Shown here: piece after piece, positions 21,912 to 34,326 of the stretch
How positions within the stretch are numbered: position 1 is the stretch's first letter
Layout of the letters: the number at the start of each line of letters is the position of its first letter
Assembly (NCBI GenBank): GCA_002304435.1
Contig: NEUZ01000006.1
Location: 1 to 45,131, forward strand
DNA from: Opitutia bacterium Tous-C8FEB
GTDB lineage: Bacteria; Verrucomicrobiota; Verrucomicrobiia; Opitutales; Opitutaceae
DNA: 45,131 nucleotides
Reading direction: 5' to 3'
Made by a program: the position numbers and the translations under genes
Notes under the pieces: generated by a model
The model's input: only the letters and a program-made list of their open reading frames with translations
Databases searched by the model: none
Told to the model about the DNA's origin: nothing

Positions 21912-24269
21912 ATGCGCCTGCAACCCCTCCGCGATCCGCGGCTCGCCCTGTCCCTGATGCTTTCCCTGATCGCGGTCGTCGCCGCCGAGCGCCCGCTCGA
22001 CGAGCGCGCCGCGCGGCCCGATGAGTGGGGTTACCGGCCGGCGGACGGCGCGCGCGTCGCGCTCAACCCGCCGAGCTTCACCTGGATCGCGCCGCCGGAC
22101 GCGGTCACTTATGACGTCGAGTGGTCCGCCGATCCCGCGTTCCCCGCCGGCGGCACGACGACGGCCGCGGGCGTGGTCTGGCCCACCTACACGCACGACG
22201 CGCCGCTGTCGCCCGGCACCCATCATTGGCGTTACCGGGCGCGGGACGCGCGGGGCGCACCCACGGCGTGGAGCCGCACCCGCCGGGTCGAGGTGCCCGC
22301 GGCGGCGGCGGTGCTGCCGCTGCCCGGGCGCGCGGAGCAGCGGGCGCGGGTACCGGCCGGGCATCCGCGGCTGTTTCTACGGCCGGAGGACCTGCCCCGG
22401 CTGCGGGAGCTCGTCCGCGGGCCGGAGGCGCCGGCGCTGGCGGAGTTGTGCGCCGCGGCGGATCGTTTCCTGCTGGCCGGTCCCACCCCGGAGCCGCCGC
22501 ACAAGGGCTCGGCGCGGGACAAGACCAACGCGGAGCTGATCAAGTACTGGTGGCCGAACCGGGTGCAGGTGGAACAGGCCTGCACCGAAGCGGAGACCCT
22601 CGCGTTCGTCTATCTCCTCACCGGCGAGCGCCGCTACGGCGAGGGCGCGCGGCGCTGGCTGCTGCATCTGGCCGCGTGGGATCCCGCGGGCACCACCAAT
22701 TTCACCCTGAACTGCGAGGCGGGGAAGCCCCTGTTGCACCGGCCGGCGCGCGCCTACGACTGGGCGTGGGATGTCTTCACGCCGGAGGAGCGCGGCCGCA
22801 TCCAGGCGACGATGCGCACGCGCGTGCTCGAGGCCTGGAACAGCGGCGAGGTCGCCCGCGGCGTCGGCCACCTGCAGCGCCCCTACGGGAGCCACGCGAA
22901 CCGCGTCTGGCACAAGCTGGCCGAGGCGGGCATCGCTTTCCTCGACGAGATCCCCGAGGCGCCCCAGTGGCTCGATTACGCGCTCAACAAGTTTTATTCC
23001 TGCTATCCCGTCTGGTCGGACGACGACGGCGGCTGGCACGAGGGCGTCAGCTACTGGTCCAGCTACCAGAGCAAGGCGGCCGGTTGGCTCCAAGTAGCGC
23101 AGACGGCGCTGCGCATCGACGGCCTGCGCAAGCCGTTCTTCGCCCAGGTGGGCGACTATCCGCTGTACCTGGCGCCGCCGCATTCCCCCAATTCCGGGTT
23201 CGGGGACCTTTCCTTCCGGCCTCTCGACGCCCCGGCGTTCCTCGAGTACCACGTGCGCGCGCGGGCGGCGAGCGGGGACGGTGGCAACGCCGCGTACTGG
23301 GCGTGGTGGGCGCGCGAGAAACGGCAGCCGGCGAACGGGGGCATCATCGGCCTGCTCTACCGCGCCAACCTGCCCGCCCCCGCGGCGCCGCGGCCGCCGG
23401 CCGACCTACCCGCGTCGAAGGTCTTTCGCGGCATCGGCGTGGCCAGCCTGCACACCACGCTCCTCGACAGCCGGGAGGACGTGCACTTCGCCTTCAAGGC
23501 GAGCCCGTTCGGTTCCCAGAGCCACGGGCACAATCCGCAGAATTCCTTTCTGCTGAACGCCTACGGCGAGGCCCTGCTCGTGGCTAACGGCTACCGTGAC
23601 CTCCACGGCAGCGCCTTCCACACCGGGCACGTGCACCAGACCCGGGCGCACAATGCGGTGCTGGTCGACGGCGAGGGCCAGATCCCGCACACCGCTCGCG
23701 CCACCGGCGCCTTCGTGCGCGCGGACCTCGGATCCGGGCGGGACATCCTCGTCGGCGACGCCACCCCGGCCTACGGCGGCCGCCTCCGCAAGGCCTGGCG
23801 CCACGTGGTCTTCGTGAAGGGGCCGGATCCTTTCGTGGTCTACTATGATGAGCTTGTGGCGCCCGCGCCCGCGACGTTCCAGTTCCTCCTTCACGCTCCC
23901 AGGCCCTTCGCCGTCGAGGCGGCCGCAGGCGCCGCCCGGGTCGAGCAGCCGCGGGCCGCGCTCGGCGTGCAGTACCTTTCGCCGCTCGCCCTCGCGTTCC
24001 GGCAGACGGACGGGTTCCAGCCGCCGCCGACGCGTGAATTCCCGAACCTCTGGCACCTCGAGGCGGCCACCTCGGAGCGGCGGGCAGAGCTGGGGATGGT
24101 CACCGTGCTGGTCCCCGAGCGGGCGGGCCGCCCAGTGGCGTGGTCGGCGCGGCGCGAGGACCGGCCGGATGGGGTGCGGGTGGAAGTCACGGTAGCGGGC
24201 CGGCGGCACACGCTGGAATTCCCGTTCCCGGGCACGGAGCGCCCGGTCACCCTGACGCCGGAACCGTAG
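21912..24269 (+). CDS. Secreted heparinase II/III-like polysaccharide lyase (DUF4962-like N-terminus)
   Basis: Signal peptide; PDEWGYRPADGARVALNPPSFTWIAP; HPRLFLRPEDLPRLREL; SFLLNAYGEALLVANGYRD; TRAHNAVLVDGEGQ. Confidence 0.85.
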   Translation: MRLQPLRDPRLALSLMLSLIAVVAAERPLDERAARPDEWGYRPADGARVALNPPSFTWIAPPDAVTYDVEWSADPAFPAGGTTTAAGVVWPTYTHDAPLSPGTHHWRYRARDARGAPTAWSRTRRVEVPAAAAVLPLPGRAEQRARVPAGHPRLFLRPEDLPRLRELVRGPEAPALAELCAAADRFLLAGPTPEPPHKGSARDKTNAELIKYWWPNRVQVEQACTEAETLAFVYLLTGERRYGEGARRWLLHLAAWDPAGTTNFTLNCEAGKPLLHRPARAYDWAWDVFTPEERGRIQATMRTRVLEAWNSGEVARGVGHLQRPYGSHANRVWHKLAEAGIAFLDEIPEAPQWLDYALNKFYSCYPVWSDDDGGWHEGVSYWSSYQSKAAGWLQVAQTALRIDGLRKPFFAQVGDYPLYLAPPHSPNSGFGDLSFRPLDAPAFLEYHVRARAASGDGGNAAYWAWWAREKRQPANGGIIGLLYRANLPAPAAPRPPADLPASKVFRGIGVASLHTTLLDSREDVHFAFKASPFGSQSHGHNPQNSFLLNAYGEALLVANGYRDLHGSAFHTGHVHQTRAHNAVLVDGEGQIPHTARATGAFVRADLGSGRDILVGDATPAYGGRLRKAWRHVVFVKGPDPFVVYYDELVAPAPATFQFLLHAPRPFAVEAAAGAARVEQPRAALGVQYLSPLALAFRQTDGFQPPPTREFPNLWHLEAATSERRAELGMVTVLVPERAGRPVAWSARREDRPDGVRVEVTVAGRRHTLEFPFPGTERPVTLTPEP

Positions 24270-24332
24270 TCGCGCGGAGCCGTTTTTGCCCTTTTCCCCG
24301 GCCGGCGGGCCGCGCAGTTTCGCGCCACCCCG

Positions 24333-25904
24333 ATGAAGACCTTCCCCTGCCTGCTGCTGCTCCTCGCGTTCCTAGCCGTCTTCGCCCGCGGCGCGGAGCG
24401 CCCGAACGTGGTGCTGATTCTGCTGGATGACCTTGGCTACGGCGACGTCTCCGCCAACCACCCCGCGGGCCGCATCCGCACGCCGCAGATGGACCGCATT
24501 GCGCGCGAGGGGGTGCGCTTCACCGACGCCCACACGCCGTCCTCGGTGTGTACGCCCACGCGCTACGGCCTCCTGACGGGACGCTACAACTGGCGCACGC
24601 GCCTGCAGCAGGGCGTCCTTGGCGGCCTTTCGCCGCGCCTGATCGAGCCGGGCCGAGACACCCTCGCGTCTTTCCTCCGCCGCGCCGGCTACCGCACGAC
24701 CGCGGTCGGCAAGTGGCACCTCGGGATGGATTGGGCGAAGCTGCCCGGCAAGGAGGTCAACGTGCTGGGGATCGAGTCCGCGGCGCAGGCGTGGAGCGTC
24801 GACTACGCCCGGCCCATCGCCAACGGCCCGCTGAGCGTGGGCTTCGACCGTTACTTCGGCATCGCGGCCTCGCTGGATATGGTGCCGTACACCTTCATCG
24901 AGAATGACCGGGTGACTGTCCTGCCGACCATCGAGCGGACCTGGCCGCTGCACCCGGGGCACCCCGGTGAGTGCCGCACCGGTCCGGCGGCGCCCGGATT
25001 CGAGGTCGAGCACGTGCTGCCCGAGTTCACGCGTCAGGCGGTGGCGACGATCGAGGCGGGCGCCGCCTCCGGGCAGCCGTTCTTCCTCTACCTGCCGCTG
25101 GCCTCGCCCCACACGCCGATCGCGCCCAATCCGCCGTGGAAGGGACGCAGCGGGCTCAACCTTTACGCGGACTTTGTCCTGGAGACCGACGACGCGATCG
25201 GGCGGGTGCTCGCCGCCCTCGACCGAACCGGCACGGCGGCGAACACCCTGGTCATCCTCACGAGTGACAACGGCTGCTCGCCGCAGGCGCGGATCGAGGA
25301 GCTCGCCGCTCAGGGCCACGCGGTCAACGGGCCCCTGCGGGGCCATAAGGCCGACTTGTTCGATGGCGGGCATCGCGTACCGTTTCTGGTGCGCTGGCCC
25401 GCGCGAGTGCGACCAGCGGTGAGCGACCAACTGGTCTGCCTTACCGATGTGTTCGCCACCTGCGCGGAGATTCTGGGCCTCCGGCTGCCGGACGAGGCGG
25501 GCGAGGACAGCTTCAGCTTTCTGTCGGTCCTCGAGCGGAGGGGACCCTCGACCCGCGAGTCGGTGGTGCACCACTCGATCAGCGGCGCGTTCGCGATCCG
25601 GCGCGGGCCGTGGAAGCTGGCGTTGAGCCCCGGCAGCGGCGGGTGGTCCGCGCCGCGGGATCCGGAGGCGCGGCAGCAAGGTCTGCCGGAGACGCAGCTG
25701 TACCGGATCGGCGGAGACGATTTGGCCGAGCGCGAGAACCTTGCCGCGCGTCATCCCGAAATTGTGGCCGAGCTGGAGCAGACGCTGCAGCGGCTGGTGG
25801 ACCAGGGGCGGAGCACCCCGGGCCGGCCGCAGGCCAACGCGGTGCCTGTCGTGCTGCGCAAGCCGATTCCTGCCCCGGCGGCGAAGGCGAAGCGCAAGTC
25901 CTGA
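24333..25904 (+). CDS. Secreted arylsulfatase (Cys-type)
   Basis: ERPNVVLILLDDLGYGDVS; formylglycine motif CTPTRYGLLTGR; GKWHLGMD; TSDNGC. Confidence 0.93.
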   Translation: MKTFPCLLLLLAFLAVFARGAERPNVVLILLDDLGYGDVSANHPAGRIRTPQMDRIAREGVRFTDAHTPSSVCTPTRYGLLTGRYNWRTRLQQGVLGGLSPRLIEPGRDTLASFLRRAGYRTTAVGKWHLGMDWAKLPGKEVNVLGIESAAQAWSVDYARPIANGPLSVGFDRYFGIAASLDMVPYTFIENDRVTVLPTIERTWPLHPGHPGECRTGPAAPGFEVEHVLPEFTRQAVATIEAGAASGQPFFLYLPLASPHTPIAPNPPWKGRSGLNLYADFVLETDDAIGRVLAALDRTGTAANTLVILTSDNGCSPQARIEELAAQGHAVNGPLRGHKADLFDGGHRVPFLVRWPARVRPAVSDQLVCLTDVFATCAEILGLRLPDEAGEDSFSFLSVLERRGPSTRESVVHHSISGAFAIRRGPWKLALSPGSGGWSAPRDPEARQQGLPETQLYRIGGDDLAERENLAARHPEIVAELEQTLQRLVDQGRSTPGRPQANAVPVVLRKPIPAPAAKAKRKS

Positions 25905-25933
25905 CCGGTTCGGGCGAGCCCAAGGCCGGCCGG

Positions 25934-26188
25934 TCACGCGGGGGGCGGCGGGGAGGTGCGCACGTGGAGGCAGCAGGAGTGGTAGCGCGCGAGGTACTCG
26001 AGCTCCGCGTCGCTCAGGCCGTGGATCCACCGCCGGCGGAAGTCCTCGCCTTCCGGCCGCAGCCCGTGGAGGGGGCAGAAGGGCGGGTTGCCGTGATCGA
26101 CCGGACAGCCGCGGGTGAGCTCGAACACCTGGCGCTCCAGCCAGCCCCGGCGATCGTACTCGGGAAAGGGGGGCAGCGGCGTGGTCAT
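25934..26188 (-). CDS. Small Cys-containing conserved-looking protein of unknown function
   Basis: 84 aa: FELTRGCPVDHGNPPFCPLHGLRPEGEDFRRRWIHGLSDAELEYLARYHSCCL. Confidence 0.6.
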   Translation of the reverse strand: MTTPLPPFPEYDRRGWLERQVFELTRGCPVDHGNPPFCPLHGLRPEGEDFRRRWIHGLSDAELEYLARYHSCCLHVRTSPPPPA

Positions 26189-26357
26189 AACCGGAAGCAG
26201 CTAGGGCCATCCGGCCCGGGCTCCGGGAAGGTACCACACCACGGTGTTGTCCGCCACGGGCGGGCCGGGAATCCAGCGGGGTGTTTTCCGCCGCCAGGCT
26301 TCCGACAATCCGCTCGCCAGCGCCCGGCCGGCGGCTTTCCCTGCGGCCAGCTTACCC

Positions 26358-28022
26358 ATGTCGCGCCTGCACGCCGCCTCCTTATTCGCCGGCCAACTGG
26401 GCCGTGGCGCGGCCCGCCGGGGCCTCCGGGCGGCGCTGCTCGTTCTCGTGCTGTCGTGGCCGGCCGCGGCGGCGGAGACCACCCTGACCTTCGCGGGGGT
26501 TGCGCTCGACGCCGAGACGGCACGGGCGGATGAGCGGCTACGCGAGTACCTGCGGTCGCGCGATGGCCTCCGCTTCGAACCGCGCGACCTCGACCACGGC
26601 GCCGCGGTGGATCTCCTCGTGGCGTGGGATGCGCGGCGGCAGGGCCCGCTCCTCGCGCGGGTGACCCCTTTCGTCTACCTCGCCGCGGAGATGCTCGGGG
26701 CCAACCTCGACGTGGTGGCCACGGCGGTGAGCCCGCGTGTGCCGGACACCACGCGGCTGAGCCACCTCGTGGTGCGGCGCGGAGCGGGCCTGAGGGGGGC
26801 GGATCCGGACGCGTTGCTGCGCTGGTTGCGGGAACGGGCCGAGCCGGCGCGGTTCGTCTATCCCCACAAGTTCAGCACCTCGGGCTACGTGTTGCCGTCG
26901 GCGTTTTTCCGGCGCGCCGGCGTGTTCACGGGCTCGGGACCCAACGGACCGGAGCAGCGGCACACCTTCATTCGGGCGGAACAGCCCGCGGGCGGGCGCG
27001 GCGCAGCCGAGTTGGTGGGGCTCGTCCGCGAGGGCCGGGCGGAGCTCGCGGCGGTGTGGGACGGCGTGCGCGCGCGCTTCGCGGACGACCCGGATCTCCT
27101 CTTTATCCCGCTGCCGGTACCCGCACCCAACGACCTGCTGGTCCTCTCGTCCGGCGCGGACCGGGGCGTGCGGGAGCGGGTGACCGCGGGCGTGCGGGCG
27201 ATGCGGGCCGGGGAGATCGGCGTGGGGGACACGTTGCGCTGGCAGGACTTCAACGCGGCGCCCGAGGCGCGGCGGGCGCTAGCGGCCCTACGCCGCCAGA
27301 CGCGGGGTGGACCGCCCGCGGTGCCGATCAAGATCCGCGGGCCCGCCGGCGGGGATGCGCTGCCCGATCCGGCCCTGCTGGAGGCGGCACGGCAGGCGGT
27401 CCTCCTCGCGGGCACCGAGTTCACCCTCTACGACGAGGACTTCCACAAGCATTTTGACGTCCTCTGGACCCTGCGCCGCGCGCACGACGACGGGGTCGTG
27501 CTGACCAGCGAGTACCCTGATTTCGGCCTCCCGCCGCAGGAGTTCCACCTGAGCCACCGGCGCGATGATTCCGAGAGCCTCGTGGCCCGGCTAGAGGATT
27601 GCCTCTCGAACCGGATGCACCGCCTGCGCGAGGTGTGGAGCTTCGACGACCGTACGCCGACCGTCCTGCGCGACGTGCGCTTCGCGTTGCCGCCGGGAAC
27701 GCGATTGCCGGCCGTGCGGGTGGTGTGGAACGACCCTGCGAACAATGACCGCGCGGTGGGTTCGCCGTTTGTCACGGAGGTCGCCGCGGGCGACTTCCAC
27801 GCCTTCCGCCTGAAGCCCGACGGGTTTCCCCGGCGGGGCGACGGGGTGCGCCTCGACCTCGATCCTCTCGGTAGCACGTCCTACCGGGTCGCGTTGGTGC
27901 GGCCGTTGGCGGATACCTTCCTATTCCGGCTGGGGACTTCCGTCGTTCTGGTCCTCGCGGTGCTAGCGGCCGTGCTGGCGCTGTGGACCCTGGTACGGCG
28001 TCCGGGCGCGCCGCCGCGATGA
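26358..28022 (+). CDS. PhnD-like (phosphate/phosphonate ABC-type) periplasmic substrate-binding protein with C-terminal TM anchor
   Basis: Signal peptide; ARVTPFVYLAAEMLGANLDVVAT; YPHKFSTSGYVLPSAFFRRAGVF; AELAAVWDGVRARF; C-terminal TM TSVVLVLAVLAAVLALWTLVRR. Confidence 0.75.
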   Translation: MSRLHAASLFAGQLGRGAARRGLRAALLVLVLSWPAAAAETTLTFAGVALDAETARADERLREYLRSRDGLRFEPRDLDHGAAVDLLVAWDARRQGPLLARVTPFVYLAAEMLGANLDVVATAVSPRVPDTTRLSHLVVRRGAGLRGADPDALLRWLRERAEPARFVYPHKFSTSGYVLPSAFFRRAGVFTGSGPNGPEQRHTFIRAEQPAGGRGAAELVGLVREGRAELAAVWDGVRARFADDPDLLFIPLPVPAPNDLLVLSSGADRGVRERVTAGVRAMRAGEIGVGDTLRWQDFNAAPEARRALAALRRQTRGGPPAVPIKIRGPAGGDALPDPALLEAARQAVLLAGTEFTLYDEDFHKHFDVLWTLRRAHDDGVVLTSEYPDFGLPPQEFHLSHRRDDSESLVARLEDCLSNRMHRLREVWSFDDRTPTVLRDVRFALPPGTRLPAVRVVWNDPANNDRAVGSPFVTEVAAGDFHAFRLKPDGFPRRGDGVRLDLDPLGSTSYRVALVRPLADTFLFRLGTSVVLVLAVLAAVLALWTLVRRPGAPPR

Positions 28023-29260
28023 GGGGACCGCGCGAACTCCTGCGGACGCGGGAAGGCCTGCTGCTGCTGCCGCTGGCGGTCGCGGTGGCGGCGCTGGCCC
28101 AGGCGCAGGCCGAGGCGGCGCGGTGGAGTCCGGAGACCTACGCTCTGGGGCACCGCGTGGCGCAGGCCCTGCAGGAACTGGAGGGCGGGCTCGATTTCAG
28201 CGGAGCGGAGGCGGTGCCCAGCTGGATGGTGGCGGCGTTGACGGGCGCGTATTACCTGCTCCAGCCCGCGTTGCTCGCCGGGGCCCTCGTGGTCTGGTTC
28301 CGCGCGCCGACGGCGCGGCCGCTGCGCCTGTTCGTTGGCTCGCTCGTGGCCGCCTACGCGCTCGCGCTCCCGTTCCACCTGCTGCTTCCGGTCCCGGAGC
28401 GATGGGCGTTCCCCGGCTCGGGGGCGATGCTGCTCTCGGATCGGCTCGGGGAAGGCTGGATCCGCGCGGCGCGGCTCTGGAGCAGCCCCGATGACGGGTT
28501 CCCCAGCCTCCATGCGGCGCTGGCCGCCGTGGTGGTGATCGTGGCCTACGCGGTGCGGGCGCGCGGGCGCCACGTGGTGCTCTGCCTCGCGCTGCTGGCC
28601 GGCGCATCCTCGTTCTTCCTCGGCCTCACCTGGCTGCCCGGCCTCGTGATGGGCGTGGCGGTGGCGGGCCTCGCCTTCGCCCTCGCGACGCGCTGGAGCC
28701 GCGGGTGGTATCCCGAGGAATGGCCGTCGCCCCGGGCTTCCGTGGCGGTGGCCGAACCCCAGCCGGCCGGGCCGGGGCCGCACTGGACCGATACCGCGTT
28801 CCCGTTCCTGCGCCCGGGCCGCCAGCGTCGGGTTTTCATCAGCTACCGCCGGGACGGCGCGTCCGACCTTGCGCGCGTGGTGCGGATGGAACTCGAGCGG
28901 CGGGGCTACCCCTGTTTCCTCGACGTGGACGACGTCGGGGCCGGGCGGTTCGACGCGCGCCTGCTCCGGGAGATCGAGGAGGCGCCCAACTTCGTGCTGG
29001 TGCTCGCCGCGGGTTCCCTTGATCGGTGCCGGGAGCCGGACGACTGGCTGCGGCGCGAGATCGCCCACGCGGTGCGGAATAGCCGCCGCATCGTGCCGCT
29101 GGTGGCGGAGGGGTTTCAGTTTCCAGCGGACGCGGACTTACCGCCCGAGGTGGCGCGCCTCGCCGGCCTCAACGCGGTCGTCTATTCGCACGCCTACTTC
29201 GGGGCGTCCTTCGACCGCCTCGAGGAATTCCTGCGCGCGCCGCCGCCGGGCGGGGCCTGA
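28019..29260 (+). CDS. Membrane protein: degenerate PAP2-like N-terminal domain fused to a cytosolic TIR domain
   Basis: ~6 TM segments with DDGFPSLHAALA; then QRRVFISYRRDGASDLARVVRMELERRGYPCFLDVDDVGAGRFDARLLREIEEAPNFVLVLAAGSLDRC...DDWLRREIAHAV; ATGA overlap with upstream gene. Confidence 0.88.
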   Translation: MRGPRELLRTREGLLLLPLAVAVAALAQAQAEAARWSPETYALGHRVAQALQELEGGLDFSGAEAVPSWMVAALTGAYYLLQPALLAGALVVWFRAPTARPLRLFVGSLVAAYALALPFHLLLPVPERWAFPGSGAMLLSDRLGEGWIRAARLWSSPDDGFPSLHAALAAVVVIVAYAVRARGRHVVLCLALLAGASSFFLGLTWLPGLVMGVAVAGLAFALATRWSRGWYPEEWPSPRASVAVAEPQPAGPGPHWTDTAFPFLRPGRQRRVFISYRRDGASDLARVVRMELERRGYPCFLDVDDVGAGRFDARLLREIEEAPNFVLVLAAGSLDRCREPDDWLRREIAHAVRNSRRIVPLVAEGFQFPADADLPPEVARLAGLNAVVYSHAYFGASFDRLEEFLRAPPPGGA

Positions 29261-31722: not shown

Positions 31723-34326
31723 ATGCGGACGCTCCCCTTCATCCTGCGGCTGGCGTGGCGTGACTCCCGCGCCTCGCGGCGCCGGCTGCTGCTCTTCTCC
31801 TCGGCCATCGTGCTGGGCATCGCCGCGCTCGTGGCGATCGGCTCGCTCGGGGCCAACCTTGACCGCGCGGTCGACGGGCAGGCCAAGGGCTTGCTTGGGG
31901 CGGATCTGATCGTGACCAGCCGCAACCCCTTCGACGCGGAGATGCTGGCGCACGCCCGTACGCAGGCGTCCGCCGTAGCGCGCGAGCAGAGTTTTTCCTC
32001 GATGGTGGTCTTTCCCGACGCGGGCGGCGCGACGCGGTTAGTTAATGTCCGGGCCCTCGAGGGGGGATTTCCTTTCTTCGGCGAGTTTACGACGGAACCG
32101 GAGACGGCGCCGGTGCGGCTGCGCGGGGGTGGGGCGGTGGCGATCGTCGAGGAGACGCTGCTGCGCCAGTTCGAGGTGCCGGTGGGCGGCCGACTGCGCC
32201 TGGGCCAGGCGGAGTTCACCGTTGCCGGCGCGCTTCGGAAACTACCCGGCGAGTCGACCGCGTTCTCGGCGACCGCGGCCCCGCGGATCTTGATCCCGGC
32301 GGCAGCCCTGGCGGCGACCGGATTGACGGAGCGCAGCGTACTGGTGCGGCACCGCTTGATGTTGGAGCTGCCGCCCGGGCGCACGCCGGAAGCGGTGGCG
32401 CGCTCCTTTCGGGAGCGGTTTCGCGCGGACGGGCTGGGCTTCGACACGGTGGCCGAGCGGCGGCGGAGCCTCGGGCGGGCGCTGGACAACATCGAGGCGT
32501 ACCTGGGGCTGGTCGGCTTCGTGGCGCTGATCCTCGGGGCCATCGGCGTGGCGAGCGCGATCCACGTCCACGTCCGGCAGAAGCTTGCGACGGTCGCCGT
32601 GCTGCGCTGCCTGGGCGCCTCGGCGGGGCAGAGCTTCGCCGTGTACTTGGTGCAGGGGGTGGCGCTCGGGCTCGCGGGCGCGCTGGCCGGGGCCGCTTTG
32701 GGGGTGGGCCTGCAGCTGGCGCTGCCGCGGCTGTTGGCCGACGTGGTGCCTTTCCCGGTGGAGTTCTTCGTCGCTTGGCCGGCGGTTGCCCGCGGAATCG
32801 GGGCGGGGGTGGTCCTCTGCCTGCTCTTCACTCTCTTGCCGCTGTTGGCCGTGCGGCGGGTGCCGCCCCTCAGTGCGCTGCGTTCCGCGCTGGCGGAGGC
32901 CGAGGGCGTCGGGCGCGATCCCTGGCGGCTGGTGGTCGCGGGCCTCATCGTGCTCGCGATCGCGGGGCTGGCCGCGTGGCAGACGGGCGGCTGGCGGGAA
33001 GGCTTGGGCTTTACCGCGGCGCTCGGAGGTGCGTTGGGCATCCTCTGGCTGCTGGCCCGGGCAACCTCGTGGCTCGCTCGCCGCGCCGTCCCGCGTCGTG
33101 CGCCGTATGTGGTCCGTCAAGGCATCGCCAACCTGCACCGGCCCAACAACCGCACCGTTCTCCTCCTGGTCTCCCTCGGGCTCGGGTGCGCCCTGATGCT
33201 CACCTTGTTCCTCGCCCGCTCCACGCTGCTGCGCGAGCTGGCCTCCGCCGGGGCCGGCACGCGGCCGAACCTGCTCCTCTTTGACATCCAGGACGACCAG
33301 CGCGACCCGCTCGCGCGCGCGCTGGCGGCGGCGGGGGCCCCGTTGCTGGTCGAGGCTCCGATCGTCACGATGCGTCTCGCCGCGGTGCGCGGGCGGCCGG
33401 TCGAGGAACTGCTCCGCGGGGCGCCCCGTGGCCGTCCGGACGAGGCCGAGGTGGGGCGGGACGGGCGGCGGGGCGGCGAGGGCGCGCGGCGTCCGGCGGG
33501 CTGGACCCTGCGCCGCGAGTACCGCACGACGTTCCGCGAGACGCTCGGCGGCGCGGAACGGCTGGTCGCGGGCGAGTTCACCCCGCGGGTCTCGCCCGGC
33601 ACGGAGGTGGTGCCGGTTTCCCTCGAGGAGGGCCTGCTGCGGGACCTTGGGGTCGCACTGGGAGACGAGCTGACGTGGGATGTGCAGGGCGTGCCGGTGC
33701 GCTCCCGCATCACGAGCGTGCGCGCCGTGGAGTGGCGGCGCTTCGAGCCGAACTTCTTCGTGGTGTTCCCCGCTGGCGTGCTGGAGGAGGCGCCCAAGTT
33801 CCACGTGATGGCCGTCCGCACCACGGATGCGGCCCACGCGGCGCGGGTGCAGCGCGCGGTGGTGGCCGCGTGCCCCAACGTCAGCGCGATCGACCTCGCG
33901 CTGGTCCTCGAGACGGTCGACAGCGTGCTATCGCGGGTCGGCTTCGTAGTGGAGTTTATGGCCGCCTTCACCGTGCTCACCGGCCTCGTGGTTTTGGTGG
34001 GCGCGGTGCTCACCGGCCGCTTGCAACGGGTCCGTGAGACCGTGCTGCTCCGCACCCTCGGGGCGAGCGCGGCGCAGCTCCGGCGCATCCAGTTGGTGGA
34101 ATACGCAATCCTCGGGACCTTGGCGGCGGTGGTGGGCGGGGCGCTGGCGCTCGGCGGCAACGCGTTGGTCGCGCACTTCGTCTTCCGCATCCCGCCTGCC
34201 TTTCCGCTCCCGGTGCTCGCCGTGGGCATCTTCGCGGTGGCTGGGGCCACAGTGGCGGTCGGGTTCCTCGCAAATCGGGGTATCGTCCGCCAGCCCCCGC
34301 TCGAGGTCCTGCGCGAGGAAACCTGA
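31723..34326 (+). CDS. ABC transporter permease (YbbP-like, FtsX domains)
   Basis: RLAWRDSRASRRRLLLFSSAIVLGIAALVAIGSL; two FtsX-like TM blocks; adjacent to ATPase. Confidence 0.92.
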   Translation: MRTLPFILRLAWRDSRASRRRLLLFSSAIVLGIAALVAIGSLGANLDRAVDGQAKGLLGADLIVTSRNPFDAEMLAHARTQASAVAREQSFSSMVVFPDAGGATRLVNVRALEGGFPFFGEFTTEPETAPVRLRGGGAVAIVEETLLRQFEVPVGGRLRLGQAEFTVAGALRKLPGESTAFSATAAPRILIPAAALAATGLTERSVLVRHRLMLELPPGRTPEAVARSFRERFRADGLGFDTVAERRRSLGRALDNIEAYLGLVGFVALILGAIGVASAIHVHVRQKLATVAVLRCLGASAGQSFAVYLVQGVALGLAGALAGAALGVGLQLALPRLLADVVPFPVEFFVAWPAVARGIGAGVVLCLLFTLLPLLAVRRVPPLSALRSALAEAEGVGRDPWRLVVAGLIVLAIAGLAAWQTGGWREGLGFTAALGGALGILWLLARATSWLARRAVPRRAPYVVRQGIANLHRPNNRTVLLLVSLGLGCALMLTLFLARSTLLRELASAGAGTRPNLLLFDIQDDQRDPLARALAAAGAPLLVEAPIVTMRLAAVRGRPVEELLRGAPRGRPDEAEVGRDGRRGGEGARRPAGWTLRREYRTTFRETLGGAERLVAGEFTPRVSPGTEVVPVSLEEGLLRDLGVALGDELTWDVQGVPVRSRITSVRAVEWRRFEPNFFVVFPAGVLEEAPKFHVMAVRTTDAAHAARVQRAVVAACPNVSAIDLALVLETVDSVLSRVGFVVEFMAAFTVLTGLVVLVGAVLTGRLQRVRETVLLRTLGASAAQLRRIQLVEYAILGTLAAVVGGALALGGNALVAHFVFRIPPAFPLPVLAVGIFAVAGATVAVGFLANRGIVRQPPLEVLREET

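Follow-up and report, generated by a model that had tools for sequence, protein, structure and literature searches.

A conserved Opitutaceae gene pair joins a PhnD-like periplasmic protein to a PAP2 membrane protein with a SARM1-type TIR domain: a possible two-protein transmembrane receptor

Introduction

Bacterial TIR NADases commonly have a role in defense (for example, PMC12162218). A glutamate is critical for the NADase activity of TIR domains, and its conservation by itself is no proof of that activity (PMC7075850). The best match to the TIR domain described here is that of the animal NAD+ hydrolase SARM1/TIR-1. A 2020 survey found no bacterial homologues of SARM1 (PMC7075850), and in a 2026 preprint SARM1 falls inside a lineage of bacterial sequences, its TIR being proposed to be of bacterial origin (PMC13142454). 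Bacterial SARM1-type TIRs are therefore already known in general; their role in bacteria is not described in the literature that we found.

Two further families bear on this locus. PAP2 phosphatases, such as PgpB and undecaprenyl-diphosphate phosphatase, carry a conserved motif, C3, that reads H207-W208-P209-x-D211 in PgpB, where no activity is detectable in the H207A mutant and little is left in D211A (PMC7413402). In the periplasmic binding proteins PtxB, which binds phosphite, and PhnD, a Ser-Thr-Ser motif binds the P-oxyanion of the ligand (PMC5700983). Here we describe a pair of genes in which relatives of all three families meet, an architecture of which we found no description in the open-access literature searched; a search for Thoeris type III by name also gave no relevant result.

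The gene pair and its distribution

The pair lies in a stretch of 45,131 nucleotides (the window) and has the following features.

26358..28022, + strand: PhnD-like exported, membrane-anchored protein, 554 aa (open reading frame; PF12974 above cut-off; orthologues in 6 other genomes)
26358..26474, + strand: predicted Sec signal peptide, residues 1-39, RRGLRAALLVLVLSWPAAAA (hydrophobic stretch 22-40 by hydropathy; cleavage site inferred from sequence)
26652..27251, + strand: phosphonate-binding (Venus-flytrap) domain, residues 99-298 (Pfam)
26874..26882, + strand: S173-T174-S175, the P-oxyanion-binding Ser-Thr-Ser motif of PhnD/PtxB (alignment with true PhnD proteins)
27312..27917, + strand: second periplasmic region, residues about 319-520, very conserved and of no known family (many invariant residues)
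27939..27995, + strand: predicted C-terminal TM anchor, residues 528-546, with a short basic tail (hydropathy scan)
28019..28022, + strand: ATGA start/stop overlap, translational coupling (kept in 7/7 genomes)
28019..29260, + strand: PAP2-TIR membrane protein, 413 aa (open reading frame, Pfam, orthologues)
28055..28690, + strand: predicted six-TM PAP2-fold domain, residues 13-224, N-in/C-in, pocket on the periplasmic face (hydropathy, positive-inside rule)
28499..28513, + strand: PAP2 motif C2, FPSLH (H165), retained (family alignment)
28628..28642, + strand: PAP2 motif C3, TWLPG, with His replaced by T204 (the nucleophile position) and Asp by G208 (lost in the window clade)
28826..29233, + strand: SARM1-type TIR domain, residues 270-405 (PDB profile search, Foldseek)
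29057..29059, + strand: E347, equivalent of the catalytic E642 of SARM1 (alignment to SARM1)

The two reading frames share the ATGA exactly as a sequence-only reading of this DNA had claimed, and each of the seven genomes with the pair has ATGA at this junction. Both genes are real and constrained, since dN/dS among close relatives is low for the main domains (0.03-0.13 overall; 0.09-0.13 for the PhnD-like gene, 0.05-0.11 for the PAP2 part and 0.03-0.11 for the TIR part). Beside the pair and divergent from it lies an 84-aa open reading frame of unknown family (window 25934-26188, - strand). A similar sequence accompanies the pair throughout the window clade and is apparently frame-shifted in two of its genomes (G010 and G021), and it may not be a gene.

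The hosts are freshwater and groundwater Opitutaceae bacteria. Both genes are intact in an identical set of genomes (G000, G009, G010, G015, G021, G023 and L022/G515), with the upstream gene split by a contig end in G009. Among 60 relatives, the genomes with an intact copy of one gene and those with an intact copy of the other coincide, five in addition to that of the window, with the two genes adjacent; a family-wide search detected the PhnD-like gene in 7 of 252 Opitutaceae genomes, one of which (G515) belongs to a different genus. When genomes from 85,488 species were scanned with seeds, six loci emerged, each in an Opitutaceae/Verrucomicrobia record; five were genomes already found and the sixth, L022, in which the two genes are adjacent too, fits the coordinates of the G515 match. 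The coverage consisted of one contig scan with exact peptide seeds and of samples of the phylum and order, and may not have reached highly diverged relatives in other phyla. Viral contigs scanned with the TIR contained no relatives, and among plasmids a distant SARM1-type TIR turned up on just two replicons, both from Paraburkholderia. In a co-conservation check set beforehand as a refutation test, the pair occurred together in 7/7 genomes, never as one intact gene alone.

The pair occupies three different neighborhoods. Within the window clade the surrounding synteny is common to the members and forms one housekeeping context; by our reading, a LacI-type regulator lies upstream and a large outer-membrane-receptor-like gene downstream in G023, and a sigma-factor-like gene follows the pair in L022. 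Some window-clade genomes that retain the pair have lost the heparinase and sulfatase genes that adjoin it in the window, or have them in broken form, which rules out a functional tie to them. As these flanks vary while both genes stay together, it is the pair that forms the conserved unit. It is also dispensable, since a close relative (G007) has lost both genes in a single clean 7.2 kb deletion corresponding to window 21947-29154 (against G007:C6, L029), which removed the heparinase, sulfatase, PhnD-like and PAP2-TIR genes and left a 36-codon TIR tail with a stop.

A SARM1-type TIR domain

The downstream protein had been read as ending in a TIR domain with the glutamate-containing WLRREI helix. 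The domain scores 43.8 bits with TIR_2 (PF13676; cut-off 28) and the glutamate, E347, is invariant in the family (7/7); what that reading overlooked is the type of TIR. Profile, fold and tree comparisons indicate that it is SARM1-type. A family profile searched against the PDB aligned with SARM1/TIR-1 along the full domain at 123 bits (about 1e-34), well ahead of the solved TIRs that came next, TIR-STING (23 bits) and TIR-SAVED (19 bits). With a predicted model whose pLDDT in the TIR region is mostly 60-78, the first 21 Foldseek matches were all SARM1/TIR-1, with TM-scores of 0.80-0.85 against isolated SARM1 TIR chains. Over its full length the human SARM1 TIR is 37% identical to the window domain, 44% to that of G023 and 40% to that of G515, whereas TIR_2 domains of the ordinary kind from Verrucomicrobia reach 17-24%. 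In a maximum-likelihood tree the family, SARM1 and a few other bacterial TIRs form one group (support 87/84, recovered in 90% of bootstraps), within which the tree gives no firm branching order.

Pocket residues of SARM1 other than E642 are also important. The family keeps the equivalents of Y568, R569, R570, D594, F603, W638, E642, N679, H685 and Y687, with W662 changed to F/Y and E599 to G (the SARM1 numbering was checked by the E642A, G601P and H685A mutants in PDB titles). The likeness to SARM1, which is unusually close, thus comprises the full-length TIR, the catalytic glutamate and most of the pocket. The remainder of the protein differs: Pfam shows PAP2 and TIR alone, with no ARM or SAM domain, and in place of these the bacterial protein has a membrane PAP2 domain and a periplasmic partner.

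A PAP2 domain that has lost its catalytic pair

The PAP2-like fold proposed from sequence alone also stood, as did the claim of several TM helices, of which six are predicted from hydropathy and the positive-inside rule. The Pfam PAP2 score of the window protein (19.9) is below the cut-off of 27.2; the label is nevertheless correct because the G023 and G515/L022 orthologues exceed the PAP2_3 cut-off of 27 (39.2 and 30.9, respectively). In the predicted topology both ends are inside, the PAP2 motifs periplasmic and the TIR cytoplasmic. The domain shares with PAP2 phosphatases the six-TM fold, a C1-like Arg and the C2 motif PSxH, and in G023 and G515 it weakly matches models of PgpB and of undecaprenyl-diphosphate phosphatase.

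The initial reading had overlooked that the catalytic His and Asp are lost in the window clade. Motif C3 is intact in the two distant relatives (HWMPD in G023, HWLPD in G515), whereas it reads TWLPG in 5/5 window-clade genomes; the window-clade protein thus differs from the phosphatases in having neither C3 residue and in bearing a TIR. Given this loss and the PgpB H207A and D211A data, the window PAP2-TIR protein is almost certainly no phosphatase, while the PAP2 domains of the distant relatives may still be. Despite the loss, the PAP2 part remains under purifying selection in the window clade (dN/dS 0.05-0.11), where its role is probably to bind or couple without catalysis. PgpB H207A is strongly stabilized by phosphate or pyrophosphate, which its authors read as repacking of the TM bundle (PMC7413402). 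By analogy, this mutant would be a precedent for a dead PAP2 domain as a ligand-driven switch, and the window protein might behave likewise.

The PhnD-like periplasmic protein

The upstream protein scores 30.7 bits with Phosphonate-bd (PF12974; cut-off 27), which upholds its description as PhnD-like, and the claimed export and C-terminal TM anchor are both predicted by a hydropathy scan. With PhnD and PtxB it has in common the Venus-flytrap domain and the Ser-Thr-Ser oxyanion motif, which is invariant in the family. The relationship is distant, however, with orthologues scoring far under the TIGR01098 and PhnD model cut-offs, and the protein adds a C-terminal region and a TM anchor. Residues about 319-520 have no significant Pfam or NCBIfam match, and the AlphaFold model (pLDDT 38) is too poor for its fold-search matches to have meaning. 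The ligand may not be a phosphonate, as the ligand His of PhnD is not clearly aligned or conserved; its class is our guess.

An orthodox phosphonate importer can be ruled out, with neither a PhnC ATPase nor a PhnE permease next to the pair. The source genome (70% complete) contains no second PF12974 protein, and weak PhnD matches in two other genomes (G472 and G604) proved to be ordinary phosphonate-transporter genes. The statement that no ABC permease or ATPase lies nearby was not literally true: an ABC ATPase at about 30.9-31.7 kb and a MacB/FtsX-type permease at 31723-34326 lie ~1.7 kb downstream of the pair, behind genes on the opposite strand, and are not PhnC/PhnE-type. Overall, the calls of PhnD-like, PAP2-like and TIR domains and the coupling of the genes are supported by HMM scores and co-conservation, and chance or mis-called domains are ruled out by Pfam, the PDB profile search, Foldseek and the Pfam scores of orthologues.

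A possible transmembrane receptor

A periplasmic sensor feeding a membrane-tethered TIR output, as first suggested for this locus, is topologically plausible. We consider the chances about even that the two proteins make up a transmembrane receptor, with a SARM1-type NADase in the cytoplasm under the control of sensing in the periplasm. The PhnD-like protein, held by its C-terminal helix, would sample the periplasm for a phosphorus-type oxyanion, with phosphate, a phosphonate or a phospho-headgroup as candidates. In the same membrane, the PAP2-TIR protein would present its PAP2 pocket to the periplasm and its TIR to the cytoplasm. Binding of ligand by the PhnD-like domain and/or the PAP2 pocket would alter the packing or oligomerization of the membrane domains, bringing TIR domains together and switching on NAD+ cleavage; in the window clade, the PAP2 domain without its catalytic pair would serve as the binding or coupling module. 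We infer that the two proteins form a physical complex and that the TIR is an active NADase under such gating.

The best circumstantial support for receptor function comes from another Opitutaceae genus (G570, locus L081), in which a TIR of this type has been connected to a sensor independently.

L081:1468-3006, - strand: CHASE2-TM-SARM1-type TIR protein (order sample search)
L081:960-1433, + strand: DUF4231/SLATT gene beside it

This protein (CHASE2 98 bits, TIR 59.6 bits) shares with the pair an extracytoplasmic sensor, TM helices and a C-terminal SARM1-type TIR; it differs in its CHASE2 sensor and in being apparently a single-gene receptor, with no PAP2 or PhnD partner seen.

Alternative readings

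The pair may act in anti-phage abortive infection, with an envelope module that detects phage entry or membrane damage and a TIR that depletes NAD+ so that the infected cell dies. Bacterial TIR NADases are often defensive, the pair is patchy (7/252 Opitutaceae genomes, deleted in one relative), its TIR has partial PADLOC/NCBIfam matches to TIR defense proteins, and the related CHASE2-TIR gene adjoins SLATT/DUF4231, a conflict-associated effector family. We nonetheless regard this as unlikely: the main clade keeps the pair in one syntenic housekeeping context, both genes are strongly conserved and not diversifying, and detecting phage would be a strange task for a sensor of the phosphonate type. 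The suggestion of a defense pair made at the outset is also unsupported by the neighborhood, PADLOC having no match among ten neighbors in the three neighborhoods. A known defense system is ruled out, as the best PADLOC/NCBIfam matches of PAP2-TIR are partial, confined to the TIR and below a meaningful level, and the neighbors are clean. Thoeris ThsB/ThcB4 and TIR-SAVED have the TIR_2 superfamily in common with PAP2-TIR, but the TIR matches are partial and low-scoring and the pair has no SLOG, SAVED or other known partner.

Alternatively, the pair could serve phosphorus or envelope-lipid homeostasis, monitoring phosphate, phospholipid or undecaprenyl-phosphate, with the TIR giving a NAD-derived signal or acting as a scaffold and no killing. 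Both extracytoplasmic modules are phosphorus-recognizing folds, G023 and G515 retain the PAP2 motifs and weakly match the two phosphatase models, and purifying selection acts on both genes. However, no Pho, Phn or lipid genes were identified adjoining the pair, nor was a separate response partner, and the largely intact SARM1-type pocket argues against a pure scaffold; such a role seems improbable to much the same degree as abortive infection. Functionally unrelated genes can also overlap, and the two proteins might be merely co-transcribed and act independently. This is very hard to reconcile with complete co-occurrence in seven genomes and three neighborhoods at identities down to 50-55%, in which neither gene is ever intact alone while the adjoining heparinase and sulfatase vary. 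The biological role may thus be either anti-phage death or stress and phosphorus/envelope signaling.

Significance and other SARM1-type TIR proteins

A bolder version of the receptor reading, which we put forward tentatively and with some doubt, is that the pair represents a new bacterial receptor class in which a periplasmic Venus-flytrap protein, together with a PAP2 domain devoid of catalysis, would switch a SARM1-type NADase in response to ligand, such that an extracellular phosphorus-type ligand directly triggers NAD+ loss. If true, the pair would be a prokaryotic, ligand-gated counterpart of SARM1. It offers a compact natural SARM1-type TIR, with identity to the human domain of up to 44%, that is linked to extracytoplasmic modules; the family includes natural versions with the PAP2 active site intact and others with it broken. 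The pair makes testable both the idea of bacterial SARM1-type TIRs as ligand-gated receptors and the outside-in control of NAD+ hydrolysis.

By our reading, SARM1-type TIRs with a TM or extracytoplasmic-looking part are also present in other members of the phylum, G172, G427 and G311, and G290 has one on an NB-ARC/TPR-like protein. Further SARM1-type TIR proteins were noted at L044:1477 onward, L045:7062 onward, L043:7815-9056 and L049:4797 onward, a set that comprises Verrucomicrobiota (TIR-TM, some by reading with PDZ-like tails) and a Paraburkholderia caribensis megaplasmid.
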